IMG/VR virus record: IMGVR_UViG_3300009180_000112 | Span: 1-35,739 of that record | Length of the DNA: 35,739 nt | Origin: a virus | Strand: one strand, 5' to 3' | Part shown: positions 1,150-25,291 of the stretch, piece after piece | Layout: the number at the start of each line of letters is the position of its first letter | Numbering within the stretch: position 1 is the stretch's first letter | Program-made: the position numbers and the translations under genes | The notes under the pieces: model-generated | The model's input: only the letters and a program-made list of their open reading frames with translations | Told to the model about the DNA's origin: nothing | Database searches by the model: none

Positions 1150-4100
1150 ATGGCAATAAGTAATCTATTAACGGGTAGGGTAAGGGTAGTAAGCCCAAAA
1201 AATGTAACACTAGACAGATATCAGTTTCTTGATTTATCACAAGCTGAACCAAATTTAGGTGTTCCAAATTTTAGCGCTTCACTTTCGGGTTCTCCTGCTA
1301 TTGTAGTTTCGGATGACCAGGGAAATAGAGGATTTGTAAGAAGTTTGGATTTGGATAATGTAACGGCTAAATTTACTGGTTCGTTTACAGGTTCATACAC
1401 AGGTTCGTATTTTGGTGATGGTAGAGATTTATTTAATCTCCCAGCTTCTAAATTTATAGCAAGTGGTTCATCGACAGCATCATTTATAAATGGTGGCTTT
1501 AATGTAAATACAAGCGCATCAATTCAGGGAAATCTTAGTGTATCTAATAACTTATATGTAAGTAAATCAATATATGCAGACCAATTAATTGTAAATGTAA
1601 TTTCTTCTTCTGTAATATATTCATCCGGTTCAAATAAATTTGGTGATGAATATTCAGATAGACAAGAATTTACTGGATCTGTATTAGTTAGTTCATCGTT
1701 GATAGTAAATAATGCAACTGGTTCATCTTTTACTGGTTCATTTACTGGTTCATTCTTTGGTGATGGTACAAATTTATTTAATTTACCAAAAGCAACTAGA
1801 TTAGCAACCGGTTCAATAACTGCATCAGTAGGACCTGAGTTTGGATTTAAAGTAGAATCGGTAGCAAGTGGTTCACAATTTACAGGAAGTTTATTAGTAT
1901 CTGGTTCTGTATCAGCATCGTTTTTTGTAGGAGATGGTTCTAAATTATTTAATATTCCTGCATTAACGGCAACATTGATAGCAAGTGGTAGTGTAACTGC
2001 ATCTGTAGACCCAGCATATGGTTTAAGAGTAGTATCTCCTATAAGTGGTTCGGAATTTACTGGTAGTGTTGATATTACAGGAAGTTTAACAATAACAGCA
2101 ACTTCTGGAGCATTGAAACTTGGTTCATCATCGGCATATTATGGAGAAGGTACATACTTAAGAAATATTCCTAGAAATGCACTTACTGAAGATGCTTTAA
2201 TATCTACCGAAATTAAAAGTGGTAGCGTAACTGCATCAGTTTCTCCTAATTTTGGATTTGTAGTAAATTCAAAAGCAAGTGGTTCATTTTTCTATGGAGA
2301 TGTTCAAGCTACATCTGGTTCTGTGTTTAGTGGTAGTGGTGCTAAATTATTTGATATTCCATTAAATTCATTAGCACAAGAAGCATTTAGAATTGTAAGT
2401 GCTAGTGTAACTGCATCGGTATCTCCAAATTTTGGATTTAAAGTAGAATCTAAAATTAGTGGTTCTCAATTTACTGGAAGTTTATTTGTAACTGGAAATA
2501 TTGAAATACCAACTGGTAGTGGATATTTTTCTGGTAGTGGTGCCGGTTTATCCGATATACCAAGATCAGCATTATCTTTTGAAATTAATAGAATAGCAAG
2601 TGGAAGTGTAACCGCATCGGTTGATCCTGGTAATGGATTTGTAGTATTTTCCCCCGCAAGTGGTTCTAGATTTACTGGTTCTATTTTTGTAACGGGTAGT
2701 GGTATTGAACTATCGTCTGGGTCTTTTAGTGGTAGTGGAGCTAGATTATTTGATATTCCTAAATCAGCAATTTCTAATTTAGATTTATCAAAAATATTTT
2801 CTGGTTCTTATACAGCATCTATATCTCCTGATTATGGTTTTACAGTAAACACTCGTTCTACGATTAGTGGTAGTTTAGTTGTATCATCATCGGCAGAACC
2901 TTTAGCAACATCTTCGATACCAACATATTATTATGTAACAAATTTTGGAGCATCTGCTTATAATTTTGATGGAGCAGCAAGTGGACCTAATCCAAATTTA
3001 ACTTTAGTTAGAGGTGTTACTTATCAATTTGAAGTAAACGCAAACGGTCATCCATTTTATATAAAAACAGCAGCAACATCTGGTGTTGGTAGTCAATACA
3101 CAACTGGAGTTGTTAATAATGGAGCTCAGAGTGGTTCTGTGTATTTCACACCACCATCTGGTTCTCCTGATACATTATATTATGTTTGCCAATTCCATCA
3201 AAGTATGGCGGCAACAATGAGTATTGTTGATACGATTTATTTACAAAATAGAATTTTATTTGAAGGCAATACCGCTATTAGTGGTGGTTTATATGTAAGA
3301 GATTATGTAAGAGCAAGAGAGTTTACTGGTTCTTTTTCTGGTTCGTATATTCAAGGTGATGGTGGTGGGTTATTTAATATTCCTCGTTCCGCTTTTACTG
3401 GAGATGCATTTAGAATAGCATCTGGTTCAGTAACGGCATCAACTACACCTGATTATGGATTTAGAGTTGAAACTGATAGAACGGCATCGGCATATGGTTC
3501 ACAATTTACTGGTTCAGTTGATATAAGTGGAAGCTTAAGAGCATTTGCAGTTAGCGCTTCTTTAATATCTGGTTCATTTTTTGGAGATGGTAGTGGATTA
3601 AGAAATGTACCTGCTGAAGTATCAAATAGAATTTCAAGTGGTAGTGTAACCGCATCGGTAAATCCTGATGGTGTTGGTTTTAAAGTAGAATCTTCACAAT
3701 TTGGTTCTAGATTTACGGGTTCATTATTTATTAGTGGAGGTGGTATATTTTTAGAAACTGGTTCATCTTATTCTGGTAGTGGTAGATATCTTTATGATAT
3801 ACCTCGTTCAGCACTTTCATTTGATATTAGTTTAATTGCTAGTGGTAGTTTTACCGCATCAGTTTCTCCAACTTATGGATTTAAAGTAGAATCTGCACAA
3901 AGTGGTTCTAGACTTACTGGTTCATTATTTGTAAGTGGTGGTGTTTATTTGGGTAGTGGTTCTCATTTTAGTGGTAGTGGTAGATATTTGTTTGATATAC
4001 CTCGTTCAGCAATTTCAAATTTAGATACAAACGCAATATTTTCTGGGTCTGTTACCGCATCGGTAGCACCTAATACTGGATTTATTGTAACATCGATTGT

Positions 4101-7100
4101 AAGTGGTTCAATATTTAGTGGTAGCATTAATGTAAGTGGTAGTGGTAAATTTATAAATGGCGTAACTGCATCGGTATTTAGTGGTAGTGGTGCGGGTTTA
4201 ACCGATATACCATTTTCAGCACTTTCGCAAGAATTATTTAGAATCGCATCTGGTTCAGTAACAGCTTCTGCTATACCTGATTACGGATTTAGAGTTGAAT
4301 CGCAAGCAAGTGGTTCACAAATAACAGGTAGTGTTAGAGTTACAGGAAGTTTATTTGTAACGGCAACTTCTGGAGCATTAGTATTGGGTTCATCTTCAGC
4401 TTATTATGGTGAAGGTACTTATTTAAGAAATATTCCTAGAAATGCTTTAAGTGAAGATGCACTTATTTCAACCGAAATTAAATCAGGTTCAGTAACGGCA
4501 TCAGTTTCTCCTAATTTTGGATTTGTAGTAAAATCACAAGCAAGTGGTTCTATATTTAGTGGTAGTATAAGAGTTACTGGAAGCGTTTATGTAGAAAGTG
4601 GTTCTTCGTATTATGGAGATGGTAGTGGTTTAACAAATATTACACTAGCTAATTTAGCAATAGATTCAACAAAAATATTTAGTGGTTCTGCAACAGCTTC
4701 AATATCACCTGATAAAGGATTTACTGTAAATACTTATTCTACTATTAGTGGAAGTTTTATAGTTTCTTCATCAGCAAGAGAAGTATTAACCTCATCATTA
4801 TTTCCTGTTTATAATGTTACAGCTGATGGTAGTAGCGCTTATATAATTAGTGGTTCGGTTCAAGGTTCAAATCCATCTATAACATTAGTAAGGGGTGTTA
4901 AGCATACATTTAATATAAACGCAATAGGGCATCCTTTTTATATTAAAACAGTAAACTCAACTGGAACAGGTAACACTTATTCAAGTGGAGTTACTAATAA
5001 CGGAGCTGCAGTTGGTACTATTATATTCACACCACCGGTAGATGCTCCAAATACTTTATATTATAATTGCCAATTTCACGCTGGTATGGCTGGCACATTT
5101 AACCTTGTTGATTCAATAATATTACCAGCTGAAATAAAATTCATTGGAGAAACAAAAATAATTGGTAATATAACTGCTTCAATGTATAGTGGTAGTGGTA
5201 GGGGTTTATTTGATATACCACAATCAGCACTATCATCGGAAGTATTTAGAGTGGCAAGTGGTAGTGTAACTGCATCTGTAGCACCTAATTATGGATTTAA
5301 AGTAGAATCTCAAATAAGTGGTTCACAACTTACAGGTAGTTTACAGGTAAGTGGTAGCATTTATATGTACGCTACAAGTGGAGCATTGATGTTAGAATCA
5401 TCTTCTAATTTCTTTGGTGAGGGTAGATATTTAAGAAATATACCTCGTTCAGCATTAACGGAAGATGCATTGATTTCTACTGAAATTAAATCAGGTTCAG
5501 TAACAGCATCGGTAGCACCTGATTATGGGTTTAAAGTTATTACTGCATTTACATCTTCATTAGGTGAATCTGGGGCATTTACCGCATCAATCGCATCTCA
5601 ATTCACAGGTTCTATTTCTGTAAGTGGTAGTGTTTATATTAATGATAATAGTGGTGGATTATTTATAGAATCATCTTCATTCATATATGCAGAAGGTACT
5701 TATTTAAGACGTATTCCAAAATCAGCATTAACCGAAGATGCATTATTATCTTCATTCATAGTATCTGGTTCTGTTACCGCATCTGTAAATCCTAATGATG
5801 GATTTAGAGTTATAACTCCATTTACTGGTTCTCAAATTGGTTCTCAATTTACTGGTTCGGTTGAAGTTAGTGGTAGTATTATAGCTAAAAATTTCTTCAT
5901 AGGAGATGGTAGATATATTACAAATGTACAAGCAGCAGCATCTCCATTAATAGCAAGTGGTTCGGCAACGGCATCTGTATCTAGTGGAGATACATTTATA
6001 GTAACAACTTTAGCAACTGGTTCTGGTTTGGATTTCCAAATTGGTACTCGTATAACGGGTAGTGTGGATGTTAGTGGTAGTTTACAATCTCAATTCTTTG
6101 TTGGTGATGGTAGATATATTACAAATGTTGTAGCAAACGCAGCACCATTTATAGCAAGTGGTTCGGCAACGGCTTCGGTAGCAAGTGGTGATACATTTGT
6201 AGTAAAAACAGCAGCAACTGGTTCTCAATATGGTTCTAGAATTACTGGTAGTATTGATGTTAGTGGTAGTATTAAAGCATTTTCATTTATTGGAGATGGT
6301 TCTCAATTAACAAACGTTCAAGCGGCAGCATCTCCTTTAATAGCTAGTGGTTCGGCAACGGCTTCGGTAGCAAGTGGTGAAAAATTCTTGGTAATTACAT
6401 CACCTGAATCTGGGTCATTTAAATCTCAATTTACATCATCGGTAGCAATTAGTGGTTCGCTTACAGCATCTCTTTATTATGGAGATGGTGGTGGATTATT
6501 TAACATCCCACCTGATGCGATTCAAAACTTAGAGTTACCAAAAATTAACTCTGGTTCTGGTGTTGCTATCATTGACCCAACTAAATTAAATGTAAACGTA
6601 CCAATTACAGCAGCAAGATATGATGGAGATGGTAGTGGATTATTTAATATCCCACCTGATGCATTGCAAGATTTGAAATTAGATAGAATCATTTCTGGTT
6701 CTGTACAAGCTCAAATCTCACCAAATAAAGGATTGCAAATTGGAACTAGAACATTTGTGTCTGGTAACTTAAGTGTTACTGGTTCATTATTTGTTACTGG
6801 TGGAAATATTGTAGCAAACTCTGGTTCTGTTTTCTTTGGTGATGGTAGTGGATTAACAAACATTAATATAGCTAACTTATCATTTGAAACATTCTTATTA
6901 AAGAGTGGAAGTGTAACAGCATCTATTTCACCTGATAAAGGGTTTGTAGTAAATACATCCGCATCTATTTGGGGAGATTTGTATGTAAATAATAAATTTA
7001 GAGCAAATAGTATAACTGCTAGTAATTATATTTTCTCTCCATTAATTAGTAGTTCATTTTTGGGAACATATAATTTCCAAGGTAATGGACCAACTGCATC

Positions 7101-10100
7101 GGCTCAATATGATATTTTAAGATTTGATGAGAATAGAGGATATTTCATTCCACAACCTGAAACTTCAATAACTGAAACTGTAGGATTTAGTAATGTAAGT
7201 GATTTAACAATTGTACATAATTTGGATATTCGTTATCCTATGGTACAAATATATGCAACTGGTTCTGAAGACCAGATTATGGCTGGTACTATTAAATCAA
7301 TTGATAAAAACACAATACAAATTAAATTTGCTGGATTAACTTCTGGAAATGTTGTAATTGGTAGTGGTGGTTCATTAATCAATGGAACAATACCTGGTGA
7401 TAGAGTTATTGGTACTGTACTTTCATCATCATATGCAGTTAGAGCTGGTGTGGCGGAAAGTATAGTTGGATTTAATTCAGCATCATTAGCAGCTTTGGGT
7501 GATTTGGAAAACTTTGTAAGAAATTCACAAACATCTTCGATGGCTGTGTTTAGTGCTGTAAGTTCATCATATGCACTTACAGCATCATACGCATTAAATG
7601 CAGGACAAGGTGGTACTGATTTATTTATATACCAAACAAGTTCATTAGTAAAAGCACAAACTGGAAAAATTAACTTTACTGGTAGTGGTGTAAGTGTTAC
7701 TCCATCTGGTTCAGATGGTGTATTGGTAACTATATTAGGTGGAGGTGGTGGTGCTGGTTTTGGTGATTTACTTAGTTCACAAACTTCTTCAATGTTGGTT
7801 GGGACTGCTTCATTAGCATTCACCGCATCATACGCTTTATACGCTTTAAATGCGGAAGGAGTAAATACAGCATCATTCTTACAAGTAAATAAAGATAGTA
7901 ATATTAACGCCAATTTAACAATAAGTGGAAGCTTGGGAGTTAGTGGTAGTGTTGCATTTAGTAGTAGTATTTCACTTTATAGTTTACCTTCTGGTTCAGC
8001 ACAAGAAGTTGTTGTTTGGGACCCTATAACTAAAAAATTAGGATATAGAAACGTAGCAGCTGCAGTAGGTTCATCAGGTACTGGTGGTACTTCTGGGGGT
8101 GATGGTTCATCCGGCTCTTCTGGAAGTAGTGGTACAACAGGTTCAGCTGGTTCATCCGGCTCTTCTGGAAGTAGTGGTTCATCCGGCTCCTCTGGAAGTA
8201 GTGGTAGTAGCGGTACGTCTGGAATAAGTGGAACTAATGGAACGTCTGGGTCTTCTGGAAGTAGTGGAAGTAGTGGAAGTAGTGGTTCATCGGGAACTTC
8301 TGGCACATCTGGAAGTTCTGGGTCATCGGGAAGTTCTGGTTCATCGGGAACTTCTGGTTCAACTGGTTCTAGTGGTAGTAGCGGAAGTAGTGGGTCATCA
8401 GGAACTTCTGGTAGTAGTGGAACTAGTGGAAGTAGTGGTACAACTGGTTCGGATGGCACATCGGGAACTTCTGGAACTAGCGGCACTAGTGGTAGTGGTG
8501 GTTCATCGGGAACTTCTGGTAGTAGCGGTTCATCAGGAACTTCTGGAAGTAGCGGTTCATCTGGAAGTGGAGGTTCAACTGGGTCAGCAGGTACATCAGG
8601 AACTTCTGGTTCATCTGGCACATCAGGAACTTCTGGTTCATCGGGTTCATCTGGGTCATCAGGCACAACTGGTTCGGCTGGTACATCGGGTTCATCAGGA
8701 ACCTCTGGGTCATCTGGAAGTGGAGGTTCATCAGGTACTTCAGGAACTTCTGGTTCAACTGGTACGGCTGGCACATCGGGAACTTCTGGAACTGCTGGCA
8801 CATCAGGTTCATCAGCAACTGCTGGTACAGGTGGTACATCGGGTACGTCTGGCACCTCTGGTACAACTGGAACTGGTGGTACGAGTGGCTCTAGTGGTAT
8901 AGATGGTACTAGTGGCTCTAGTGGCTCGAGTGGTAGTAGTGGAGAGGCTGGTACATCAGGAACTTCTGGAAGTGGTGGTACATCAGGTACTTCTGGCACA
9001 GCTGGTACATCGGGAAGTTCTGGGTCATCTGGAAGTAGTGGTTCAACCGGCTCTGCTGGTACATCAGGTACTTCTGGTATTGATGGAAGTAGTGGTACAT
9101 CAGGAAGTTCTGGGTCATCTGGAAGTAGTGGAACAACAGGTTCATCGGGAAGTTCTGGTAGTAGCGGTACAAGTGGCACATCAGGAACTTCTGGCACATC
9201 GGGAACTTCTGGAAGTAGTGGTTCATCAGGAACAACTGGTTCATCAGGAACTTCTGGAAGTAGCGGTACTGCTGGTAGTAGTGGTGTTGATGGTACATCT
9301 GGCACAAGCGGTACATCAGGAACTTCTGGTACAAGTGGCACAACTGGTTCGGATGGAACTTCGGGAAGTAGTGGTACTGCTGGTTCATCTGGCACAAGCG
9401 GCACCGATGGAACTTCGGGAAGTAGTGGTTCAGCTGGCACAAGTGGTTCAGCTGGCACAAGTGGTTCAGCTGGTACAAGTGGTTCTACTGGAAGTGATGG
9501 AACTAGTGGTAGTAGTGGAACAGCAGGGTCTTCAGGAACTTCTGGTACTGATGGCACTAGTGGTAGTAGTGGAACAAATGGCTCAGCTGGTACAACTGGT
9601 TCATCGGGTACAACTGGTTCATCAGGAACTTCAGGTATAAATGGCACAAGTGGAAGTAGTGGAAGTAGTGGAAGTAGTGGAAGTACAGGTACAGATGGTA
9701 CGTCTGGCACAACAGGTACATCAGGCACAACTGGTTCATATGGTACTTCTGGCACAAGCGGTACAAATGGCACAAGCGGTACAAATGGTAGTAGTGGTTC
9801 TGCTGGAAGTAGTGGTAGTAGTGGAACTGATGGTTCTGCTGGTACAACTGGTTCGTATGGTACGAGTGGTAGTAGTGGTATAGATGGTTCATCTGGCACA
9901 AGCGGTACTAATGGAACTTCAGGAAGTAGTGGCACAGCAGGTACTTCTGGAAGTAGTGGTACAAGTGGTAGTAGCGGTACTTCTGGTTTAGATGGAACAT
10001 ATTTTGGAAGTAGTGGAAGTAGTGGAAGTAGTGGTAGTAGCGGAAGTACTGGAACTGATGGTACTTCAGGTTCTTCTGGTAGTAGTGGATTGAATGGTAC

Positions 10101-11628
10101 ATTCTTTGGTAGTAGTGGTTCATCTGGAACTGATGGCACATCGGGAACTTCTGGTACATCAGGTTCTTCTGGCACAACAGGTACAAGCGGTACTGATGGT
10201 AGTAGCGGTACTTCTGGTTTAGATGGAACATATTTTGGTAGTAGCGGTACATCAGGAACGGATGGCACAGGTGGTACATCTGGATTAGATGGGACGTCTG
10301 GTACTGCTGGGTCTTCTGGAAGTAGTGGTACAAGTGGTTTAGATGGAACATTCTTTGGTTCATCAGGAACTTCTGGTTCAACTGGTTCTGCTGGTTCAAG
10401 CGGACAAAGTGGAACATCTGGAGTAGATGGCACATCAGGAACTTCTGGTTCTTCTGGTTCGTCTGGTTTGGATGGAACTTATTTTGGTAGTGCTGGTACA
10501 TCAGGTTCAACTGGTACAGCAGGCACAAGTGGTAGTAGTGGATTTAATGGTACTAATGGCACAAGTGGTTCATCAGGAACTTCTGGAAGTAGTGGATTGA
10601 ATGGTACATTCTTTGGTACAAATGGTACTAGCGGCACAAGCGGCACAAATGGTACAACAGGTACTGCTGGTTCATCTGGGTCAACTGGTACGGATGGTAC
10701 ATCAGGAACTTCTGGAAGTAGTGGATTGAATGGTACATTCTTTGGTACAAACGGCACATCAGGAACTTCTGGTACAAATGGTACAACAGGTACTGCTGGT
10801 TCGTCTGGGTCAACTGGTACGGATGGTACTAGTGGTACAAGCGGAAATGGTACATCGGGAACTTCTGGGTTAAATGGAACTTATTTTGGTAGTAGTGGTT
10901 CTTCGGGAACTAATGGAGCTCCTGGTACAACTGGTGCAGATGGTTCATCCGGAACTTCTGGAACAAATGCTCCTGGCTATTCATCGGGAACTTCTGGAAC
11001 GGATGGCATTACGGGTTCAAGTGGTACATCGGGTTCATCAACGCCTGGTATAACCTCTGGTACTTCTGGTACACCGGGTATTAGTGGTACATCAGGTACT
11101 TCACCTGCTGGATTCACATCGGGTACATCAGGAGGAGCAGGTACTAATGGTACTTCTGGGTTCGCAACCGTTAGTGGTACAACTAATAATGGTGTATTAA
11201 CTTTAGAAGGCGCATCTCCAAACGTAAGAGCGGAAGATAATATGGTATTTGATGGTACTACATTGACTGTTACTGGTAATGTAGTAGTAACAACTTCGGT
11301 AGCAGCAACAACGTTTAGAGAAACATATAATGATTTAGGAACTGGAGCTAGTGCTACATTTGATTTATCAACGGCAAACAATTTTAGAAGACAATTTAAC
11401 GGAACTGCAACAATAACATTTAGTAATCCACCAGCATCAAACGCATTTGGATTTACGTTAGTAGCTGTTAATGCTGGTTCATACTCTATAACTTGGCCGG
11501 CAGCAGTAGATTGGGCAGGTGGAGTTCCTCCTGTATTAACATCGGTTGGTACGGATGTACTTACATTCTATACATTTAATGCTGGTTCATCATATTACGG
11601 ATTTATAGTAGGTAAAAATTTAAGTTAA
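1150..11628 (+). CDS. Giant collagen-like tail fibre / adhesin (3,492 aa) with two cupredoxin domains
   Basis: A very long virion surface fibre, presumably trimeric, for host attachment. Residues about 100-1,950 hold roughly 22 divergent beta-repeats of the form SGSVTASVxPxxGFxVxS...FTGSxxVSGS, linked by FxGDGxxLxNIP motifs known from phage fibres. Inserted are two cupredoxin-like domains (about 592-694 and 1218-1321) with complete type-1 copper ligand patterns. Residues about 1,960-2,300 are a Ser/Ala-rich connector. Residues 2307-3337 are collagen-like Gly-X-Y made almost only of G, S, T, A, D and N. From about 9991 this is broken regularly by GL(D/N)GT(Y/F)FG. The C-terminus carries the familiar GTTNNGVLTLEG...FDGTTLTVTG module and a head with TITFSNPPASNAFGFTLV and SITWPAAVDW, typical of phage fibre tips. 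No S74 chaperone is present. The start follows GGAAAGTAACGC and two ATATTTATA motifs. The family of parts is clear; the receptor is unknown. Confidence 0.85.
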   Translation: MAISNLLTGRVRVVSPKNVTLDRYQFLDLSQAEPNLGVPNFSASLSGSPAIVVSDDQGNRGFVRSLDLDNVTAKFTGSFTGSYTGSYFGDGRDLFNLPASKFIASGSSTASFINGGFNVNTSASIQGNLSVSNNLYVSKSIYADQLIVNVISSSVIYSSGSNKFGDEYSDRQEFTGSVLVSSSLIVNNATGSSFTGSFTGSFFGDGTNLFNLPKATRLATGSITASVGPEFGFKVESVASGSQFTGSLLVSGSVSASFFVGDGSKLFNIPALTATLIASGSVTASVDPAYGLRVVSPISGSEFTGSVDITGSLTITATSGALKLGSSSAYYGEGTYLRNIPRNALTEDALISTEIKSGSVTASVSPNFGFVVNSKASGSFFYGDVQATSGSVFSGSGAKLFDIPLNSLAQEAFRIVSASVTASVSPNFGFKVESKISGSQFTGSLFVTGNIEIPTGSGYFSGSGAGLSDIPRSALSFEINRIASGSVTASVDPGNGFVVFSPASGSRFTGSIFVTGSGIELSSGSFSGSGARLFDIPKSAISNLDLSKIFSGSYTASISPDYGFTVNTRSTISGSLVVSSSAEPLATSSIPTYYYVTNFGASAYNFDGAASGPNPNLTLVRGVTYQFEVNANGHPFYIKTAATSGVGSQYTTGVVNNGAQSGSVYFTPPSGSPDTLYYVCQFHQSMAATMSIVDTIYLQNRILFEGNTAISGGLYVRDYVRAREFTGSFSGSYIQGDGGGLFNIPRSAFTGDAFRIASGSVTASTTPDYGFRVETDRTASAYGSQFTGSVDISGSLRAFAVSASLISGSFFGDGSGLRNVPAEVSNRISSGSVTASVNPDGVGFKVESSQFGSRFTGSLFISGGGIFLETGSSYSGSGRYLYDIPRSALSFDISLIASGSFTASVSPTYGFKVESAQSGSRLTGSLFVSGGVYLGSGSHFSGSGRYLFDIPRSAISNLDTNAIFSGSVTASVAPNTGFIVTSIVSGSIFSGSINVSGSGKFINGVTASVFSGSGAGLTDIPFSALSQELFRIASGSVTASAIPDYGFRVESQASGSQITGSVRVTGSLFVTATSGALVLGSSSAYYGEGTYLRNIPRNALSEDALISTEIKSGSVTASVSPNFGFVVKSQASGSIFSGSIRVTGSVYVESGSSYYGDGSGLTNITLANLAIDSTKIFSGSATASISPDKGFTVNTYSTISGSFIVSSSAREVLTSSLFPVYNVTADGSSAYIISGSVQGSNPSITLVRGVKHTFNINAIGHPFYIKTVNSTGTGNTYSSGVTNNGAAVGTIIFTPPVDAPNTLYYNCQFHAGMAGTFNLVDSIILPAEIKFIGETKIIGNITASMYSGSGRGLFDIPQSALSSEVFRVASGSVTASVAPNYGFKVESQISGSQLTGSLQVSGSIYMYATSGALMLESSSNFFGEGRYLRNIPRSALTEDALISTEIKSGSVTASVAPDYGFKVITAFTSSLGESGAFTASIASQFTGSISVSGSVYINDNSGGLFIESSSFIYAEGTYLRRIPKSALTEDALLSSFIVSGSVTASVNPNDGFRVITPFTGSQIGSQFTGSVEVSGSIIAKNFFIGDGRYITNVQAAASPLIASGSATASVSSGDTFIVTTLATGSGLDFQIGTRITGSVDVSGSLQSQFFVGDGRYITNVVANAAPFIASGSATASVASGDTFVVKTAATGSQYGSRITGSIDVSGSIKAFSFIGDGSQLTNVQAAASPLIASGSATASVASGEKFLVITSPESGSFKSQFTSSVAISGSLTASLYYGDGGGLFNIPPDAIQNLELPKINSGSGVAIIDPTKLNVNVPITAARYDGDGSGLFNIPPDALQDLKLDRIISGSVQAQISPNKGLQIGTRTFVSGNLSVTGSLFVTGGNIVANSGSVFFGDGSGLTNINIANLSFETFLLKSGSVTASISPDKGFVVNTSASIWGDLYVNNKFRANSITASNYIFSPLISSSFLGTYNFQGNGPTASAQYDILRFDENRGYFIPQPETSITETVGFSNVSDLTIVHNLDIRYPMVQIYATGSEDQIMAGTIKSIDKNTIQIKFAGLTSGNVVIGSGGSLINGTIPGDRVIGTVLSSSYAVRAGVAESIVGFNSASLAALGDLENFVRNSQTSSMAVFSAVSSSYALTASYALNAGQGGTDLFIYQTSSLVKAQTGKINFTGSGVSVTPSGSDGVLVTILGGGGGAGFGDLLSSQTSSMLVGTASLAFTASYALYALNAEGVNTASFLQVNKDSNINANLTISGSLGVSGSVAFSSSISLYSLPSGSAQEVVVWDPITKKLGYRNVAAAVGSSGTGGTSGGDGSSGSSGSSGTTGSAGSSGSSGSSGSSGSSGSSGSSGTSGISGTNGTSGSSGSSGSSGSSGSSGTSGTSGSSGSSGSSGSSGTSGSTGSSGSSGSSGSSGTSGSSGTSGSSGTTGSDGTSGTSGTSGTSGSGGSSGTSGSSGSSGTSGSSGSSGSGGSTGSAGTSGTSGSSGTSGTSGSSGSSGSSGTTGSAGTSGSSGTSGSSGSGGSSGTSGTSGSTGTAGTSGTSGTAGTSGSSATAGTGGTSGTSGTSGTTGTGGTSGSSGIDGTSGSSGSSGSSGEAGTSGTSGSGGTSGTSGTAGTSGSSGSSGSSGSTGSAGTSGTSGIDGSSGTSGSSGSSGSSGTTGSSGSSGSSGTSGTSGTSGTSGTSGSSGSSGTTGSSGTSGSSGTAGSSGVDGTSGTSGTSGTSGTSGTTGSDGTSGSSGTAGSSGTSGTDGTSGSSGSAGTSGSAGTSGSAGTSGSTGSDGTSGSSGTAGSSGTSGTDGTSGSSGTNGSAGTTGSSGTTGSSGTSGINGTSGSSGSSGSSGSTGTDGTSGTTGTSGTTGSYGTSGTSGTNGTSGTNGSSGSAGSSGSSGTDGSAGTTGSYGTSGSSGIDGSSGTSGTNGTSGSSGTAGTSGSSGTSGSSGTSGLDGTYFGSSGSSGSSGSSGSTGTDGTSGSSGSSGLNGTFFGSSGSSGTDGTSGTSGTSGSSGTTGTSGTDGSSGTSGLDGTYFGSSGTSGTDGTGGTSGLDGTSGTAGSSGSSGTSGLDGTFFGSSGTSGSTGSAGSSGQSGTSGVDGTSGTSGSSGSSGLDGTYFGSAGTSGSTGTAGTSGSSGFNGTNGTSGSSGTSGSSGLNGTFFGTNGTSGTSGTNGTTGTAGSSGSTGTDGTSGTSGSSGLNGTFFGTNGTSGTSGTNGTTGTAGSSGSTGTDGTSGTSGNGTSGTSGLNGTYFGSSGSSGTNGAPGTTGADGSSGTSGTNAPGYSSGTSGTDGITGSSGTSGSSTPGITSGTSGTPGISGTSGTSPAGFTSGTSGGAGTNGTSGFATVSGTTNNGVLTLEGASPNVRAEDNMVFDGTTLTVTGNVVVTTSVAATTFRETYNDLGTGASATFDLSTANNFRRQFNGTATITFSNPPASNAFGFTLVAVNAGSYSITWPAAVDWAGGVPPVLTSVGTDVLTFYTFNAGSSYYGFIVGKNLS
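2923..3231 (+). other. Cupredoxin-like (type-1 copper) domain 1 inside the fibre
   Basis: Residues about 592-694 show a beta-sandwich pattern with LVRGVTYQFEVNANGHPFYI and LYYVCQFHQSMAATM. The candidate ligands are H634, C680, H683 and M686. C-x2-H-x2-M is the amicyanin/pseudoazurin-type C-terminal ligand loop, with the first His 46 residues upstream. Whether copper is bound is inference. The domain is bounded on both sides by ordinary fibre repeats. Confidence 0.7.
4801..5112 (+). other. Cupredoxin-like (type-1 copper) domain 2 inside the fibre
   Basis: A paralogue of the first domain at residues about 1218-1321, with LVRGVKHTFNINAIGHPFYI and LYYNCQFHAGMAGTF. Ligands H1261, C1307, H1310 and M1313 are conserved with the same 46-residue His-to-Cys spacing. 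Both domains follow a similar STISGS...VSSSA lead-in, so domain and linker were probably duplicated together. Confidence 0.7.
8068..11160 (+). repeat. Collagen-like Gly-X-Y repeat region (residues 2307-3337)
   Basis: About 1,030 residues of GTSG/GSSG-type triplets. Proline is absent until the last roughly 70 residues (GAPGTTG, NAPGYSS, STPGITS, GTPGISG). Base composition is visibly more GC-rich than the flanks because of Gly and Thr codons. The repeat leaves long open frames in other frames and on the other strand; those are shadows. Eight GL(D/N)GT(Y/F)FG interruptions occur between 9991 and 10890. Confidence 0.9.
10576..10833 (+). repeat. Near-identical 129-bp tandem duplication within the collagen region
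   Basis: Unit A (10576-10704) and unit B (10705-10833) both start GGAACTTCTGGAAGTAGTGG, code GLNGTFFGTNGTSG, and end with the ACTGGTACGGATGG segment. They differ at only a handful of positions. 129 bp equals 43 residues, the dominant spacing of the interruptions. Confidence 0.85.
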
Positions 11629-12538: not shown

Positions 12539-12982
12539 ATGTATTTAAGAATAGTAAATAACACAACAACATATCCATACACAATACAAGATTTAAGAGA
12601 ATCTTTACCAAATGTAAGTTTACCAGCTGAAATAACAATTGAACAATTGGCTGAGTGGGAAATGTATGAAGTTTTTCATACAGCAAAACCAAATGATTAC
12701 ACTAAAAGTATTGTGGAAGGTACACCAATTTTAATAGAAGGTGTATATAAACAAAATTGGATACAAACAAATGCATCTCAATCCGAAATCGATACAAAAA
12801 TAGATAATAAATGGGATGAGATTAGAGAAATTAGAAATCAATTGTTAATAGAGTGCGATTGGACACAATTATCCGATATTCCAACGGAAACAAAGGAAGT
12901 GTGGACAAATTACAGACAAGAGCTTAGAAATATTACCAATCAATCAAACCCATTCAATATAAATTGGCCAACGAAACCTTAA
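12539..12982 (+). CDS. Phage tail assembly chaperone-domain protein (147 aa), probably for fibre assembly
   Basis: Residues about 88-147 match the phage tail assembly chaperone signature known as the Phage_tail_APC domain: WDEIREIRNQLLIECDWTQL, then SDIPTETKEVW, YRQELRNI, and FNINWPTKP at the C-terminus. The N-terminal about 75 residues (MYLRIVNNTTTYPYTIQDLR...) resemble the leader seen in small fibre-associated proteins. It starts 3 bp after the LRR adhesin stop and so is coupled to the fibre/adhesin genes. It likely assists folding or attachment of one of them, as fibre-assembly proteins commonly sit next to their substrate. It is not the frameshifted chaperone pair, which is at 25950. A structural rather than chaperone role cannot be excluded. 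Confidence 0.7.
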   Translation: MYLRIVNNTTTYPYTIQDLRESLPNVSLPAEITIEQLAEWEMYEVFHTAKPNDYTKSIVEGTPILIEGVYKQNWIQTNASQSEIDTKIDNKWDEIREIRNQLLIECDWTQLSDIPTETKEVWTNYRQELRNITNQSNPFNINWPTKP

Positions 12983-13672: not shown

Positions 13673-16600
13673 ATGGAATATTTAGGAGGTAACCCTAATG
13701 GTTTAAATCAATTAAGTTCAAGCTTAATTGCGTTGTATGTGAGTGGGAGCAAGATAGCTAACTTCTCATCGGAATCGGTGAATGTGGTTGGTAATTTTAC
13801 TGCCTCTGGTATTCAAACTAATTTAATTGTTAGTCAATCCAATTCTCCAATATCAATAAGAGGTAATGTTCAAATAACTGGTTCGTTAAATATTTCATCA
13901 TCAATAACTGCATCTTTATTTAGAGGAGATGGTAGTGGATTATTTAATATTAGTGCAACAGCAATTGGAGATTTGAACCAATTAAAATCAGGTTCGGCAA
14001 TAGCTAATATATCTCCAAACAAAGGATTAATTGTAAATACTGGAGTAAGTGTTGATAATTTTTTAATTGTAAGTGGTAGTGGTATTTTTAAAGGAGATAT
14101 TAGTGTAGCTGGAAAAATAACATCAACTGAAATATTTGCAACATATATTTCTTCTTCTGTAATATATTCATCGGGCTCAAATAAATTTGGAGATTCTCAA
14201 ACTGATAAGCAAGAATTTACTGGTAGTGTGGCTATGAGTGGTTCTCTTTTTATAGATGGGTTGAAAGCTGATAGTTCAAATGAAGTATTAGTAATAAATG
14301 CTACAACAGGTAAAATAGGAACTAAAACAGCTGCAGCAACTTCTGGAACATCTGGTACATCAGGTACAACTGGGTCTTCAGGAACTTCTGGTAGTGGTGG
14401 TTCATCGGGTACAACTGGTTCGGATGGCACATCTGGCACATCCGGTACATCGGGAACACGAGGCACTTCAGGAAGTGGAGGTACATCAGGAACTTCTGGG
14501 TCATCTGGAAGTGGTGGTACATCAGGAACTTCTGGGTCTACTGGTTCTGCTGGTACATCAGGAACTTCTGGTAGTAGCGGCAGTAGTGGAAGTGGTGGTA
14601 CATCAGGAACAAGAGGCACATCTGGAAGTAGCGGAAGTGGTGGTACATCAGGAACTGATGGTTCATCAGGAAGTGGAGGCACATCGGGAACTTCTGGAAG
14701 TGGTGGTACATCTGGCACAAATGGTACTGCTGGTAGTGGAGGTTCATCGGGAACTTCTGGTTCAACTGGTTCGGCCGGTACAACTGGGTCTTCAGGTACA
14801 ACTGGTTCATCGGGTACAACTGGTTCTAGTGGTACAAGTGGACAGAGTGGAAGTTCTGGGTCATCTGGTTCTAATGGTTCTTCTGGTAGAGATGGTACAT
14901 CTGGTAGCGGAGGTAGTAGTGGTACTGCTGGTAGCGGTGGTATTACTGGAGCAGGTGGTTCTGCTGGTACATCGGGAAGTAGTGGAAGTAGTGGGACTAG
15001 TGGGTCATCGGGTTCAACTGGTTCAGCTGGTACATCGGGAAGTTCTGGTTCAACGGGTTCTAGTGGTATAACTGGAGCAGGTGGAACGGCAGGAACTTCT
15101 GGAAGTGGAGGCACATCAGGAACTTCTGGTTCAACTGGGTCAAGCGGTACGTCTGGTACGGCAGGGACTTCTGGTTCAACTGGGTCAACGGGTTCAGCGG
15201 GTACATCAGGAACTTCTGGTTCAACTGGTTCGGCTGGTACAAGTGGCAGTAGTGGTAGTGGTGGTACAACAGGAACTTCTGGTTCGGCTGGTACGTCTGG
15301 CACAACAGGAACTTCTGGTAGTGGTGGTACTAGTGGACAAAGTGGTGGTATCAAATATAATTTTTCAACAACAATTACTGATTCTGACCCTGGTAATGGA
15401 ATAGTACAATATAATAATGGTACTATTGCTTCGGTAACTTTTTTATACATTGATATATTAGACCAAAGTGGTAATAATCAATTAGCATGGTTTAATAGTT
15501 GGGATGATAGTAACACACCAAATAATAGAGGTAATGTTATTTTATCATCAAGAGATAGTGGAACAATAAATAATATATTCACAATTACTGGAGCAGTAAC
15601 TAACGCATCTGGATATTTTAAAATACCTGTAATATATGTAAGTGGTACACTACCAACTAATACTGCACAATTAGTAATTGATTTTGCAAGAACTGGAGAT
15701 AGTGGTACATCAGGAACTTCTGGTTCTGCTGGCACAACAGGTACTTCTGGTTCAGCTGGCACATCGGGAACTTCTGGTTCAGCTGGCACATCGGGAACTT
15801 CTGGTTCTGCTGGCACGGCTGGAAGTGGTGGTACATCAGGAACTTCTGGTTCGGCTGGCACATCAGGTACAACAGGTACTTCTGGTAGCGGAGGTAGTAG
15901 TGGAACATCTGGTAGCGGAGGTAGTAGTGGTTCTGCTGGTAGTGGGGGTAGTAGTGGTACTGCTGGGAGTAGTGGTTCAGCTGGAACATCTGGTTCAGCA
16001 GGAACTGCTGGAAGTGGAGGCTCATCAGGAACTCGTGGTACATCGGGAAGTGGAGGGTCATCAGGAACTTCTGGTACTTCTGGTTCGGCTGGTAGTGGTG
16101 GTACATCAGGAACTGCTGGTACATCTGGCAGTGGAGGTACATCAGGAACTGCTGGTACATCAGGATTATTATCATTAAGTGGTACAACTGATAATGGTGT
16201 AATTACATTAAATGGAACTGCACCAAATGCAACTGTTGAAAGTAATTTACTATTTGATGGTAGTACGTTGACAGTAAATGGAGCAGCGGTAATTACTGGT
16301 AACTTAGTTGTTAATGGTACAACTACAACTGTAAATTCAAATACAATTAATTTAGGTGATAATATTATTACTTTAAATGGAGATTATACAGGTTCAGTAG
16401 CACCAACTGAAAATGCTGGTATTGAAATTAAAAGAGGTAACGCTGCAACTGTATCATTCTATTGGGATGAAACAAATGATAGATGGACTTTAGATAATAA
16501 TACATATGTAAACGGAAATATTCAGGGAACTGGTAATATTGTTATATCAGGTACAATTGATACGGGTCAAGGAGCTACTGAGGTTTATTTAATGAACCAA

Positions 16601-19600
16601 AATGTAAGAACTACGGATAACGTTACCCATGCAACAATTACAGCAACAAATGGTGTAAGTGTAACTGGTGGAAACCTTTCGGTAAGTGCTGGTAATATAA
16701 CATTAAGTGGTACAATAGATACTGGACAGGGAGCAACTGAAGTTTATTTAATGAACCAAAATGTTCGTACAACCGATGCAGTAACATTCTCTACAGTTGA
16801 TACTGGACAAGGTGCAAATGAATTGTACGCAATGAACCAAAACGTAAGAACTACGGATGCGGTTACATTCTCTACTGTTGATACTGGGCAAGGAGCAAAT
16901 GAATTGTACGCAATGAATCAAAATGTTCGTACAACTGATTCTCCTACCTTTGCTGGATTAAACATAACTGGTACGGTAACATTTAGTACTGCATTTATTC
17001 AGAATAATCTTAAACAATATGTTATAAATGGATTATCCGCATCAGCAACTCAATCTAGAAGATATGAAATAGCTAAAATTGCTATTGATTATAATGATTG
17101 GAATAGTGTTGGTGTATTTGAAGTTGAGCTAATGGAAACTTATTACGCTCAAGGCTTAAAAAAGAAATATAATGTATGGTATGGTTATGTAAGTAACTAT
17201 GGTGTATATTTAGTAGAATATCAAGGAGTTGGGTCTAATAACTTTATGGTTAATTTAAGTTCCGAAACCGCAGGAAGTGGTGACCAAAGATATATTTCAG
17301 TTTACGTTGATGTTGCATATTATTCAACTGTAGATGTTGTAATTCGTACAAATAGAAGTATAACAGCATCAAATCCTCCTGGTATCGGTTCTACTTGGAT
17401 TAATACTTCACCATCTGGAACTAACGTAACATTTACAGCAGATTCAATAGTATATCCAACATCAAATCAAACTGGTATAGCAGTACCAATTATGTATGAT
17501 AGTAATGATATAAGTTACTATGTAAACCCAGCTTCATCAACTAGATTAAATCAATTATCAGTTGGTGGTGGGGCATTTGATGTTAGTGGTATTAATATTA
17601 ACGGAGATGCTGGTATAGTTGGTTCTAATTATTTATATTTTGGACATACAAATGGTTCAATAGGTAGTTGGCAGACTAGAACATATTCTACTGGTGGAAG
17701 ACAAATTTGGAATTCAAACGGATTTGAATTTAATAGAACTGGATATGGTGGTAACATCATATTATATGCCGATTCATCGGAAAGAATTGGAATTAATACA
17801 TCAGATTTTTCATATACTTCATCAGATAACGCTTCTGTAATAAGCACTATTACAAACAATAGATTATTCGTAAATGGTTCAATTCAATTATTAGGAAACC
17901 AAGACGCAATCGTATTTGGTAGAGGAGCTGCATCATTCTTAAGAGATGAAGAATTAGGATTTGGCTGGGGTGGTGGTTGGTACATGATTGATAGTACTTG
18001 GATTCGTTCTAGAGGTTCTAAGAATGTTTATGTTGATGCCTATGTTAGAGCACAAGGTTCATTTAGAGTAGGTTCTGAATATTCAATATGGGCACCTTAT
18101 GGTACTTATAGTTCTTACATAAGTAGAATTGCATATTTCTCATTTGACTGGAATGCTAACTACGATTCATATACAAATCATGGTATAGCATCAACTGATT
18201 TAAATGGTAGTTTTAGTGATTCAATGAGTATTAACTCATTCAATGATATTAACTTAAGAATAGATAGTAATAATAATAACGCAGATTCTTATGTAAGATT
18301 CCATAATAATAGTTCTGTAAGTAATCAATTTGCATATATTGGATTTGATGGTACAAACTATGTAAACTATTTTAGTGGAATTCTTTACGCAACTTCGCAA
18401 GCTAGGTCACCTATATTTTATGATAACGATAATACGGCATTCTATATAGACCCAAATAATACCGATGTATCATTCAGAATGGCAGGTGGCATTATTTCTA
18501 CTTCTTATATGAAGATTGGTATTGAAGATGCTGGTTGGGATTGTTATATGCAAATTACGGATGATAATCCAACGCTTGACGGATTTGGATATGGTGGTGA
18601 ATTTTATTTCTATGGAGATAAATCATCAAGTTCATCTATACTTTATATGGGTGGTATTGCAGCAGCTAACCAAGTACGTTCTGCAAATCAAATGCGTTCA
18701 CCTATTTATTATGATTATAATGATACTGGATATTATGTAGACCCTAATAGTACTACAAATATTCGTTATTTAAAAGTTAATACAACTGGTACTTCATCTG
18801 GAACTAGAGCACTAACTATTAAGCAAGACGGATTTGGTGAATATAACTATGGTTCTTATCCTGGTGCTTGGACATCGGCATTACAAATCCAAAATAATGA
18901 TAATACCAAAATGATTTGGATATCACCATTGGATAGTTCAAACCACGCTAGATTCCATGTAAATGGAGCAACTGCTGGATTGCACTTTAACGTTGGTGGT
19001 GGTATAAATGCAAATGGTACTACATCTTGGGAAATTTATAGTTCTTATGTTTATAGTGGATACCCTGTATATGGTACTATATTCTATGATGCAAATGATA
19101 GTGGATATTATGTAAATCCAAATGGTACATCACGTATAGGTGGTATAGAAATATCGCCAGCTAACGATTCAACTCAAGGTATTTACTTTAGAGGTGTAAC
19201 TGGTGATAACCCTGGTTCATATAATCACACTGCGTTGGTTGAAAGGTTATGGGGAACTGCTGACCAATCTGAATTATTATTATTCAAAGGTAATGATGTT
19301 GATACCGCAACTATACATGATAGAATTAGATTAGGTTCTACTGGTAGAATTGTATTCCAATCTATGGCAGGCACTTATGATTTGAGTTCTTACATATCAG
19401 CAACTGGTACTGGTAACATCGAAGGTAGTGGATATTTCTATGGTAGTGAATTCCATGTACCTGGTTCAATTTATACACCAATAGTTTATGATAGAAATAA
19501 CTCAGCATATTTTGTAGACCCAGATGGACGTTCTCGTTTATCATCAATGGATTATGGTAATAGTTCATATTATTTGGCAGGTGGTGATTGGGGTTATCGT

Positions 19601-22972: not shown

Positions 22973-25291
22973 ATGGCAGAAAGAATCGTATCACCGGGTG
23001 TTTTTACAAGAGAAAATGATTTATCATTCCTAGCACAAGGAATTGGTGAAATTGGAGCAGCGTTTATCGGACCTTTTAAACAAGGACCTGTATTTGTTCC
23101 AACTGTTGTAAGAACTCAATCAGAATTCGAAAGTATTTTCGGAACACCTGATGGAACTTATTATACTGAATATGCAGTACAAAACTATTTAAGAGAAGCT
23201 GGAGTAGCAACAATCGTTAGGGTTGGTGGAGTTGGTGGATACCAAGAAGCAGCACCTATCGGTATTTTTGCATCTGGTGGACTTTCTAGTGAAAAATTAA
23301 TTGGTGTATTACACTCAACTAAAACCGGAAATCAAAATGTAACTAAAGCTGTACAATTGATATCTGACCCAAGAGCAGGATACTCTGGTTCATTCTTAAT
23401 GTCTGGTTCTGATTTTGGTTGGATATCAGCATCAATTTTACCAAAAGATTCAAATGATTTATCAGATGTATTTGGTACTTCTCCATTCGGTTCTAAGAAA
23501 GCATATACATATACATATTTTGAAAATTTAGCATCTGCATCTTATTCAAATGCAAATGGTGGTACAATTGTAACATCAGCAGTACTTCCACAACAAGATT
23601 TCGCATTTAATGCACAAGCTGCTGAAACTCCAATGGTACAATCACAATTAATTAGTGGTGATAGATATAACTTATTTAAGTTTGTAACTTTAGGACATGG
23701 TACATTATATAATACTAAATTTAAAATTGGCGTTTCTAATGTAAAAGCTGCTGGTGAAGATGGTGGTACTGATTATTCTACATTTACTGTAACAATCCGT
23801 TCATTCGGTGATACTGATAAGAGAAAGAGTGTTGTTGAAACATTTAATAATGTAAACTTAGACCCTGCTTCTCCAAACTATATCGCTAGAAGAATTGGTG
23901 ATAGATATTTCACAATTGGTTTAGATGGCAAAATTACTGAATATGGTGATTACACAAATAAATCAGCATATGTAAGAGTGGTAGTTTCTGATGCAGGTTC
24001 ATTCCCAATTTCAGCGGCACCATTTGGACATGGAGCATATACTAACCCAATTAAAGCATCTAATAACACACAAGCATTAAAGGTACAGGCAGTAACATAT
24101 CAAACTAATTCTACTGGTAACTCATCATCATCTCCAATTTATTATTCTGGATTTGATTTTGAAACAAACGGAATTAAATTAGATAACTCAAATTACTTAA
24201 AACCAATACCAACAAACGCTGAAACTGGTTCTAACGTATCATTCGCATTTGATGCAAATGGTTTACAATATCAAATGACTGGTTCAGTTTCATCTGATAT
24301 GGTTAAGAGACAATTTGTATTAGCATTCCAAATGGGATTTGATGGTACTAATCCTGTAACACCAATATTAAAAGCTGGTGAAAACGGATGGGGTGCTGGT
24401 AATACACAAGGATTCAATTGTTCTACATCAACATCATCTGGTTCAGTTGCATATACAAAAGCAATTGCAGCAATTTCAAACCCTGATGAGTATGATATCA
24501 ATATGGTAGTAACTCCTGGTATTGTAAGAAGATTACACCCAGCTATCACTACTAGAGTAATTGATATGGTTGAAGAAAGACAAGATGCATTCTACATCGC
24601 TGATTTCAACGATTCGGCTGATACAATCACTCAAGCAACTGAAGAAGCTAACTCTGTGGATTCTAACTACGTTGGTACTTACTATCCTTGGGTTAAAACA
24701 ATTGATACAAATACTAACAAACTTACAACTGTTCCACCATCTACATTACTTCCAGCGGTTTACGCTAGTAACGATAGATTGGCAGCTGAATGGTTCGCAC
24801 CTGCTGGTTTAAATAGAGGTGGTATCGTAGGAGCAGTTAGTGTATTGAATAGATTAACACATTCTGAAAGAGATACTTTATACGAAAACAAAGTAAACCC
24901 AATCGCAGCATTCCCTGGACAAGGTATTGTAGCATTCGGACAAAAGACGTTGCAAGATAAGGCTTCAGCATTAGATAGAATCAACGTAAGAAGATTACTT
25001 ATCACTGTTAAGAAGTACATCGCTTCAACATCTCGTTACTTAGTATTCGAACAAAATACTTCTGAGACTAGAGGAAGATTCTTAAATACGGTTAATCCTT
25101 ATTTGGAAGCAATCCAACAAAGACAAGGTTTATACGCATTCAAAGTGGTGATGGATGAAACCAACAACACACCGGATGTAATAGATAGAAATATTATGGC
25201 AGGACAAATTTTCTTACAACCGGCTAAGACGGCTGAATTCATAGTAATTGACTTCAACATCTTACCAACTGGAGCAAGTTTCTCAGCATAG
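22973..25291 (+). CDS. gp18: Contractile tail sheath protein (T4 gp18 family), 772 aa
   Basis: Forms the contractile outer tube that drives the tail tube through the cell envelope. The N-terminus, MAERIVSPGVFTRENDLSFL followed by GAAFIGPFKQGPVFVPTVV, is the classic sheath opening. The C-terminal domain (about 520-772) carries NRLTHSERDTLYENKVNPIA, FGQKTLQDKASALDRINVRR, RYLVFEQNTSETRGRFLN and DRNIMAGQIFLQPAKTAEFI, the conserved polymerising part. At 772 residues it exceeds T4 gp18 (659); the central region (about 110-500) is probably surface-exposed decoration domains. It has its own motif upstream and is followed by the tube gene, the usual order. Codon choice shifts toward C-ending codons (TTC, AAC, TAC, ATC) in its second half, consistent with high expression. 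The ATG at 22973 gives the conserved N-terminus. Confidence 0.95.
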   Translation: MAERIVSPGVFTRENDLSFLAQGIGEIGAAFIGPFKQGPVFVPTVVRTQSEFESIFGTPDGTYYTEYAVQNYLREAGVATIVRVGGVGGYQEAAPIGIFASGGLSSEKLIGVLHSTKTGNQNVTKAVQLISDPRAGYSGSFLMSGSDFGWISASILPKDSNDLSDVFGTSPFGSKKAYTYTYFENLASASYSNANGGTIVTSAVLPQQDFAFNAQAAETPMVQSQLISGDRYNLFKFVTLGHGTLYNTKFKIGVSNVKAAGEDGGTDYSTFTVTIRSFGDTDKRKSVVETFNNVNLDPASPNYIARRIGDRYFTIGLDGKITEYGDYTNKSAYVRVVVSDAGSFPISAAPFGHGAYTNPIKASNNTQALKVQAVTYQTNSTGNSSSSPIYYSGFDFETNGIKLDNSNYLKPIPTNAETGSNVSFAFDANGLQYQMTGSVSSDMVKRQFVLAFQMGFDGTNPVTPILKAGENGWGAGNTQGFNCSTSTSSGSVAYTKAIAAISNPDEYDINMVVTPGIVRRLHPAITTRVIDMVEERQDAFYIADFNDSADTITQATEEANSVDSNYVGTYYPWVKTIDTNTNKLTTVPPSTLLPAVYASNDRLAAEWFAPAGLNRGGIVGAVSVLNRLTHSERDTLYENKVNPIAAFPGQGIVAFGQKTLQDKASALDRINVRRLLITVKKYIASTSRYLVFEQNTSETRGRFLNTVNPYLEAIQQRQGLYAFKVVMDETNNTPDVIDRNIMAGQIFLQPAKTAEFIVIDFNILPTGASFSA

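Follow-up and report, generated by a model that had tools for sequence, protein, structure and literature searches.

Metal held in a host-recognition fibre has been described for phage T4 and for Alteromonas phage R22Y, and in T4 gp37 it takes the form of seven iron ions in HxH sites (cited in PMC11705849). A phage cupredoxin has likewise been described, namely the plastocyanin encoded by cyanophage petE, which infected cells make as a free protein of photosynthesis (PMC3037559). Here we examined a 35.7-kb stretch of DNA from an uncultured virus (IMG/VR record IMGVR_UViG_3300009180_000112, positions 1 to 35,739; this whole stretch is called the window), in which an original prediction had placed two cupredoxin domains with complete type-1 copper ligand sets inside a tail fibre. 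The cupredoxin reading was supported by sequence comparison and by structural modeling of the second domain.

Fold and ligands of the two fibre domains

Translation of the open reading frame (ORF) for the 3492-amino-acid fibre confirmed all eight ligand positions, with equal spacing in the two domains (Table 1), and the C-x2-H-x2-M loop has the spacing of amicyanin, as had been proposed. The domains are each ~101 amino acids long and 55% identical; they are therefore paralogues, and by descent the pair amounts to a single observation. The 3492 residues include no cysteine other than C680 and C1307, and four of the seven histidines (634, 683, 939, 1252, 1261, 1310, and 2023) are ligands, with no His-x-His motif among the seven. 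The same two domains, at the same 627-residue spacing, were found in three closely related contigs (L003-L005), where the ligands provide the only two cysteines in 2101 residues; compared along the fibre, L003 and L005 are about 76-78% identical to the window protein.

An AlphaFold2 model of domain 2, based on a 57-sequence alignment, reached a predicted local distance difference test (pLDDT) score of 97.8 and a predicted template modeling (pTM) score of 0.89, and its eight strands bore out the beta-sandwich-like character suggested earlier. The best Foldseek matches among solved structures were rusticyanin, AcoP, and plastocyanin (E = 2e-4 to 1e-3). Structural re-alignment gave a Z score of 10.0 and 2.1 Å both to rusticyanin (89 residues aligned) and to the N-terminal blue-copper domain of the H. 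denitrificans three-domain nitrite reductase (87 aligned), and cupredoxin-type proteins accounted for all 50 of the re-aligned matches listed. Numbered from the start of the domain, H41 immediately precedes strand 43-46, C87 closes strand 82-87, H90 is in a loop, and M93 stands ahead of strand 94-100, which is the cupredoxin-type arrangement of His, Cys, and Met. The claim of a cupredoxin fold is thus backed by the model, the structure search, and the re-alignment.

Comparison with hidden Markov models (HMMs) of cupredoxin families, one of the checks proposed with the original prediction, gave weaker evidence than the fold. Profile comparison with PF00127 members returned a probability of 88% (E = 2.8e-6) with the four ligands in register, so that the complete type-1 set aligned with that of plastocyanin-family proteins, and a reversed-sequence control was negative. 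No cupredoxin model was reached in Pfam and NCBIfam scans; PF00127 and PF13473 (plastocyanin-azurin, Cupredoxin_1) gave no match at E <= 1 in Pfam hmmscan, and a sequence search of the PDB gave no significant match (best auracyanin, E = 0.05). A weak match to PF25489 (At5g54830-like) covered the domain, with E values of 8e-5 to 4e-3 and 23 bits against a cut-off of 27.

Conservation and loss of the ligand set

We surveyed 363 distinct full-length domains, drawn from bacterial genomes as well as from phage isolates and IMG/VR contigs. All four ligands (HCHM) were kept in 330 of them, so the motif is not there by chance. The full set was present in 32/32 bacterial relatives and intact in the main domain of all 14 isolate phage loci checked, down to ~30% identity. 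Among 528 column pairs in a similarity-weighted co-variation analysis, Cys-His2 ranked first (phi 0.99), His1-His2 third, and His1-Cys fourth; in varying together, these three residues behave as a metal site would. Judged from these alignments, the ligand set is conserved as a unit and its three strong ligands co-vary. The Met was kept in most domains from which the other ligands are gone, and it may for this reason have a structural part besides that of a weak axial ligand.

The other 33 domains each lacked at least two ligands, and loss of a single ligand was never observed (0/33). The Cys and the second His were both gone in 32 of the 33, the exception (YCQM) retaining its Cys within a ligand-free clade. 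This pattern bears on the idea that the sites are relics, left over in a secreted bacterial cupredoxin that was recruited as a beta-sandwich and stays metal-free in the virion. Both the ligand-free copies and the bacterial relatives, seen at 50-62% identity, fit such a history. A relic would decay residue by residue, and the absence of that decay argues against it, as do the retention of ligands among isolated phages at identities as low as about 30%, the rarity of Cys elsewhere in fibres (none besides the ligands in the window protein), and the position of phage-domain cysteines, 127 of 133 of which sit in the ligand column. We consider a relic quite unlikely.

Several results weigh against a copper-type fibre module. 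Once the four ligand columns were masked, the PF00127 profile match dropped to 0.7%; the sequence link to that family therefore rests mostly on the ligands, and the link through the fold is a separate argument. In a tree built with the ligand columns masked, the set was lost and the domain kept in about nine clades (33/363 domains). Only 3-4 of the losses fall on well-supported branches, where a sign test was not significant and underpowered (p = 0.25). Ligand loss in a domain that otherwise persists thus occurs in about nine phage lineages, always as loss of the set and never of single residues; in part, this is the outcome that the original prediction had named as evidence against a site. 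Loss by set rather than by residue points to a genuine site in the domains that retain the set, and it speaks against one that the fold requires. The ligand-free lineages likewise indicate that the metal is dispensable for persistence of the domain in some fibres.

These losses also bear on a purely structural role, in which copper or another soft metal, taken up either in assembly or once the cell has lysed, would lock the beta-sandwich against unfolding or proteolysis without contact with the host. We regard this as possible, though on balance unlikely. The position of the domain varies (mid-fibre in the window, last in cyanophage gp9, near the N-terminus in podovirus P-GSP1), as suits a generic module, and a fibre with several domains may lose the site of one copy while the others are kept: in five fibres (L006, L053, L143, L148, and L158) one copy is ligand-free and its sister intact. 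Such pairs suggest a portable module that benefits from its metal although the fold can do without it. Persistence of the domain without ligands in about nine lineages speaks against the structural role, and cupredoxins generally fold without metal. A model of one ligand-free relative (L072), built from eight close sequences only, had a pLDDT of 54; we infer its fold from an identity of about 50%.

A separate fibre family (L065, L066-L072, L077, L079-L082) carries three tandem ligand-free copies (YPF...LYYSSATQSNM), the outer two degenerate, and in most members the domain lies at 3001-3297.

Genomic setting and distribution of the domain

The 3492-residue protein consists of beta-rich repeats with two cupredoxin inserts, followed by a collagen-like region and a C-terminal domain. 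Because of its collagen-like repeats (Pfam Collagen, E = 2e-105) and the adjoining fibre-assembly, sheath, and tube genes, the protein is, on gene content, a virion-type tail fibre, a reading that was challenged and kept; the placement of the domains inside a tail fibre was accordingly upheld. The window comes from an aquatic virus of bacteria that is, to judge from its sheath, T4-like. The sheath is nearest to those of the isolates Microcystis phage Mel-JY01 and Flavobacterium phage immuto, and no near relatives of the window were found among phage records. The window also encodes a second giant fibre (positions 13673-21646; 2657 amino acids) with collagen-like stretches and without a cupredoxin domain, the end of which resembles the Peptidase S74 self-cleaving chaperone (DRRLKENL).

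Table 1. Features of the window, with the basis for each assignment
Feature	Position	Strand	Basis
Predicted cupredoxin domain 1, residues 594-694	2929..3231	+	phrog_677, E 4.7e-21; family HMM, E 2.9e-41
H634, first His ligand, domain 1	3049..3051	+	Translation
C680, Cys ligand, domain 1	3187..3189	+	Translation
H683, second His ligand, domain 1	3196..3198	+	Translation
M686, axial Met position, domain 1	3205..3207	+	Translation
Predicted cupredoxin domain 2, residues 1221-1321	4810..5112	+	phrog_677, E 2.4e-24; AlphaFold2; PDB structural matches
H1261, first His ligand, domain 2	4930..4932	+	Translation
C1307, Cys ligand, domain 2	5068..5070	+	Translation
H1310, second His ligand, domain 2	5077..5079	+	Translation
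M1313, axial Met position, domain 2	5086..5088	+	Translation
Fibre protein, 3492 residues	1150..11628	+	ORF
Collagen-like region of G-x-x repeats in the fibre protein	8040..11250 (limits approximate)	+	Pfam PF01391, 7 stretches; sequence
Tail-fibre assembly protein	12539..12982	+	phrog_4912, E 2.8e-17; backs fibre identity
T4-like tail sheath (context)	22973..25291	+	phrog_23, E 2.6e-71

The original prediction regarded a redox metal site in a virion fibre as unexpected. Its premise of rarity was wrong: the domain is widespread in tail proteins of cyanophages and other aquatic phages. A tblastn search recovered at least 349 phage records with the domain, nearly all of them cyanophages, and the same fold was found in many phage fibres in a viral protein structure library. 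The commonest location is the last ~100 residues of a gp9-like 'baseplate wedge tail fiber connector' (phrog_677), and the match of the isolated window domains to phrog_677 is limited to positions 308-410 of the 412-position profile. In S-SM1 gp9, the ligand Cys is the only cysteine among 409 residues. Purified S-SM1 virions have been analyzed by proteomics (PMC3037559), and gp9 is presumably present in them. The domain also lies near the N-terminus of a P-GSP1 protein and in an S-TIM5 protein annotated as a virion structural protein. For podovirus P-SCSP1u, cryo-electron microscopy left the distal fibre unresolved (PMC10575957).

In cyanomyoviruses L176, L182, and L455, the gene after gp9 (baseplate wedge subunit or hypothetical) has a second cupredoxin-like domain with ligands (GHPMQFS...YYFCRYHRHM); in L176 and L182 a copy without ligands comes after it. 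Short 'beta-sandwich proteins' of Pithovirus and Marseillevirus, more distant than the phage fibres, had TM scores of 0.67-0.79 to the cupredoxin model.

Many of the bacterial relatives are exported, being either short proteins of a single domain that bear a signal or lipobox, or flavobacterial lipoproteins (among L084-L104) with CHRD or Lipoprotein_15 repeats and the domain at the end. The gene neighbors of the single-domain relatives gave no functional hint. The bacterial and phage domains form an uncatalogued cupredoxin family over which no Pfam model exceeds its cut-off, and a new family could be defined.

Possible roles and relation to known systems

Taken together, we think it likely that these cupredoxin-fold domains with an intact type-1-like site are a copper-type portable fibre module of an uncatalogued family. 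That the site binds copper is very probable, given the exact type-1 ligand order and the behavior of the ligand set. Another metal, such as zinc or iron, at the His-Cys-His site, or use of the site as a thiol switch, is unlikely. Sequence cannot identify a metal, and the metal so far described in phage fibres is iron in the HxH sites of T4 gp37 (cited in PMC11705849). The ligand order, loop spacing, and fold are nevertheless all of the type-1 copper kind, each domain has one Cys, and the window fibre lacks HxH.

For the copper-type module, we propose that the metal would most likely be taken up after lysis in oxic water, because type-1 sites bind copper very tightly. Copper might then rigidify the ligand loop and present an exposed His face, and the loaded domain might help the fibre to engage or hold the host surface. 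The exposed surface that surrounds the second His is where cupredoxins dock to partners, which suits a role in host contact; a generic role fits the variety of places in which the domain occurs. We would tentatively give equal weight to a docking role, in which the loaded domain might aid contact of the fibre with the host surface, and to simple stabilization of the fibre by the loaded domain, either of which is conceivable.

Electron transfer by the virion seems only a minor option. In its active form, a redox module would swap electrons with surface carriers and tie attachment to the redox or light state of the host; we hold this to be very unlikely. The fold is that of electron-transfer proteins. 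Adsorption is reported to be light-dependent in some cyanomyoviruses, including P-HM2, and not in podovirus P-SSP7 (PMC7112961), and P-HM1 (L454), the sister of P-HM2, has a domain with intact ligands in a large fibre-like protein. This is, however, a single loose association drawn through a sister phage, the phages differ in much else, and no electron partner is known. More improbable still is that a type-1 copper centre in the adsorption apparatus of very many cyanophages and other phages of aquatic habitats senses redox state or copper; its oxidation state, governed by light or by the host surface, would alter fibre docking and thereby gate adsorption.

The distribution of the copper-type module suggests that many virions carry copper on host-binding parts. 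Were the site loaded, copper proteins would sit on the tails of hundreds of sequenced cyanophages and of many aquatic phages that are uncultured. Copper would then join iron as a metal of phage fibres, there would be a new way to ask why light is needed for some cyanophages to adsorb, and protein annotation would gain a wide, unrecognized cupredoxin family.

We found no description of cupredoxins, or of copper, in phage tails in the open-access literature that we searched. The window domains share with rusticyanin, plastocyanin, amicyanin, and auracyanin an eight-strand fold, the His...Cys-His-Met order, and ligands at the same strand ends; unlike these free carriers, they are embedded in a virion fibre, and they have no significant whole-sequence match to any solved structure. 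Their first ligand lies in HPF, as at the type-1 His of multicopper oxidases, whereas plastocyanin-type proteins carry His-Asn. The last ~100 residues of the phrog_677 gp9-like connector are the same domain, with ligands kept in all isolates checked; the window protein differs as a collagen-rich fibre with two copies, and only that domain is common to both. PF25489 resembles the domain in a match that is below its curated cut-off, and it is named after a plant protein. The petE plastocyanin is also a phage cupredoxin, whereas the window domain is part of the tail, and confusion with that metabolic gene was excluded. In T4 gp37 and R22Y, as in the window fibre if its site is loaded, the metal is held in a host-recognition fibre; there it is iron in HxH sites, whereas the window has a predicted one-chain His-Cys-His-Met site in a globular domain. 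Iron in phage fibres was already known, and what appears new, from sequences and models, is an unrecognized cupredoxin family built into virion fibres.

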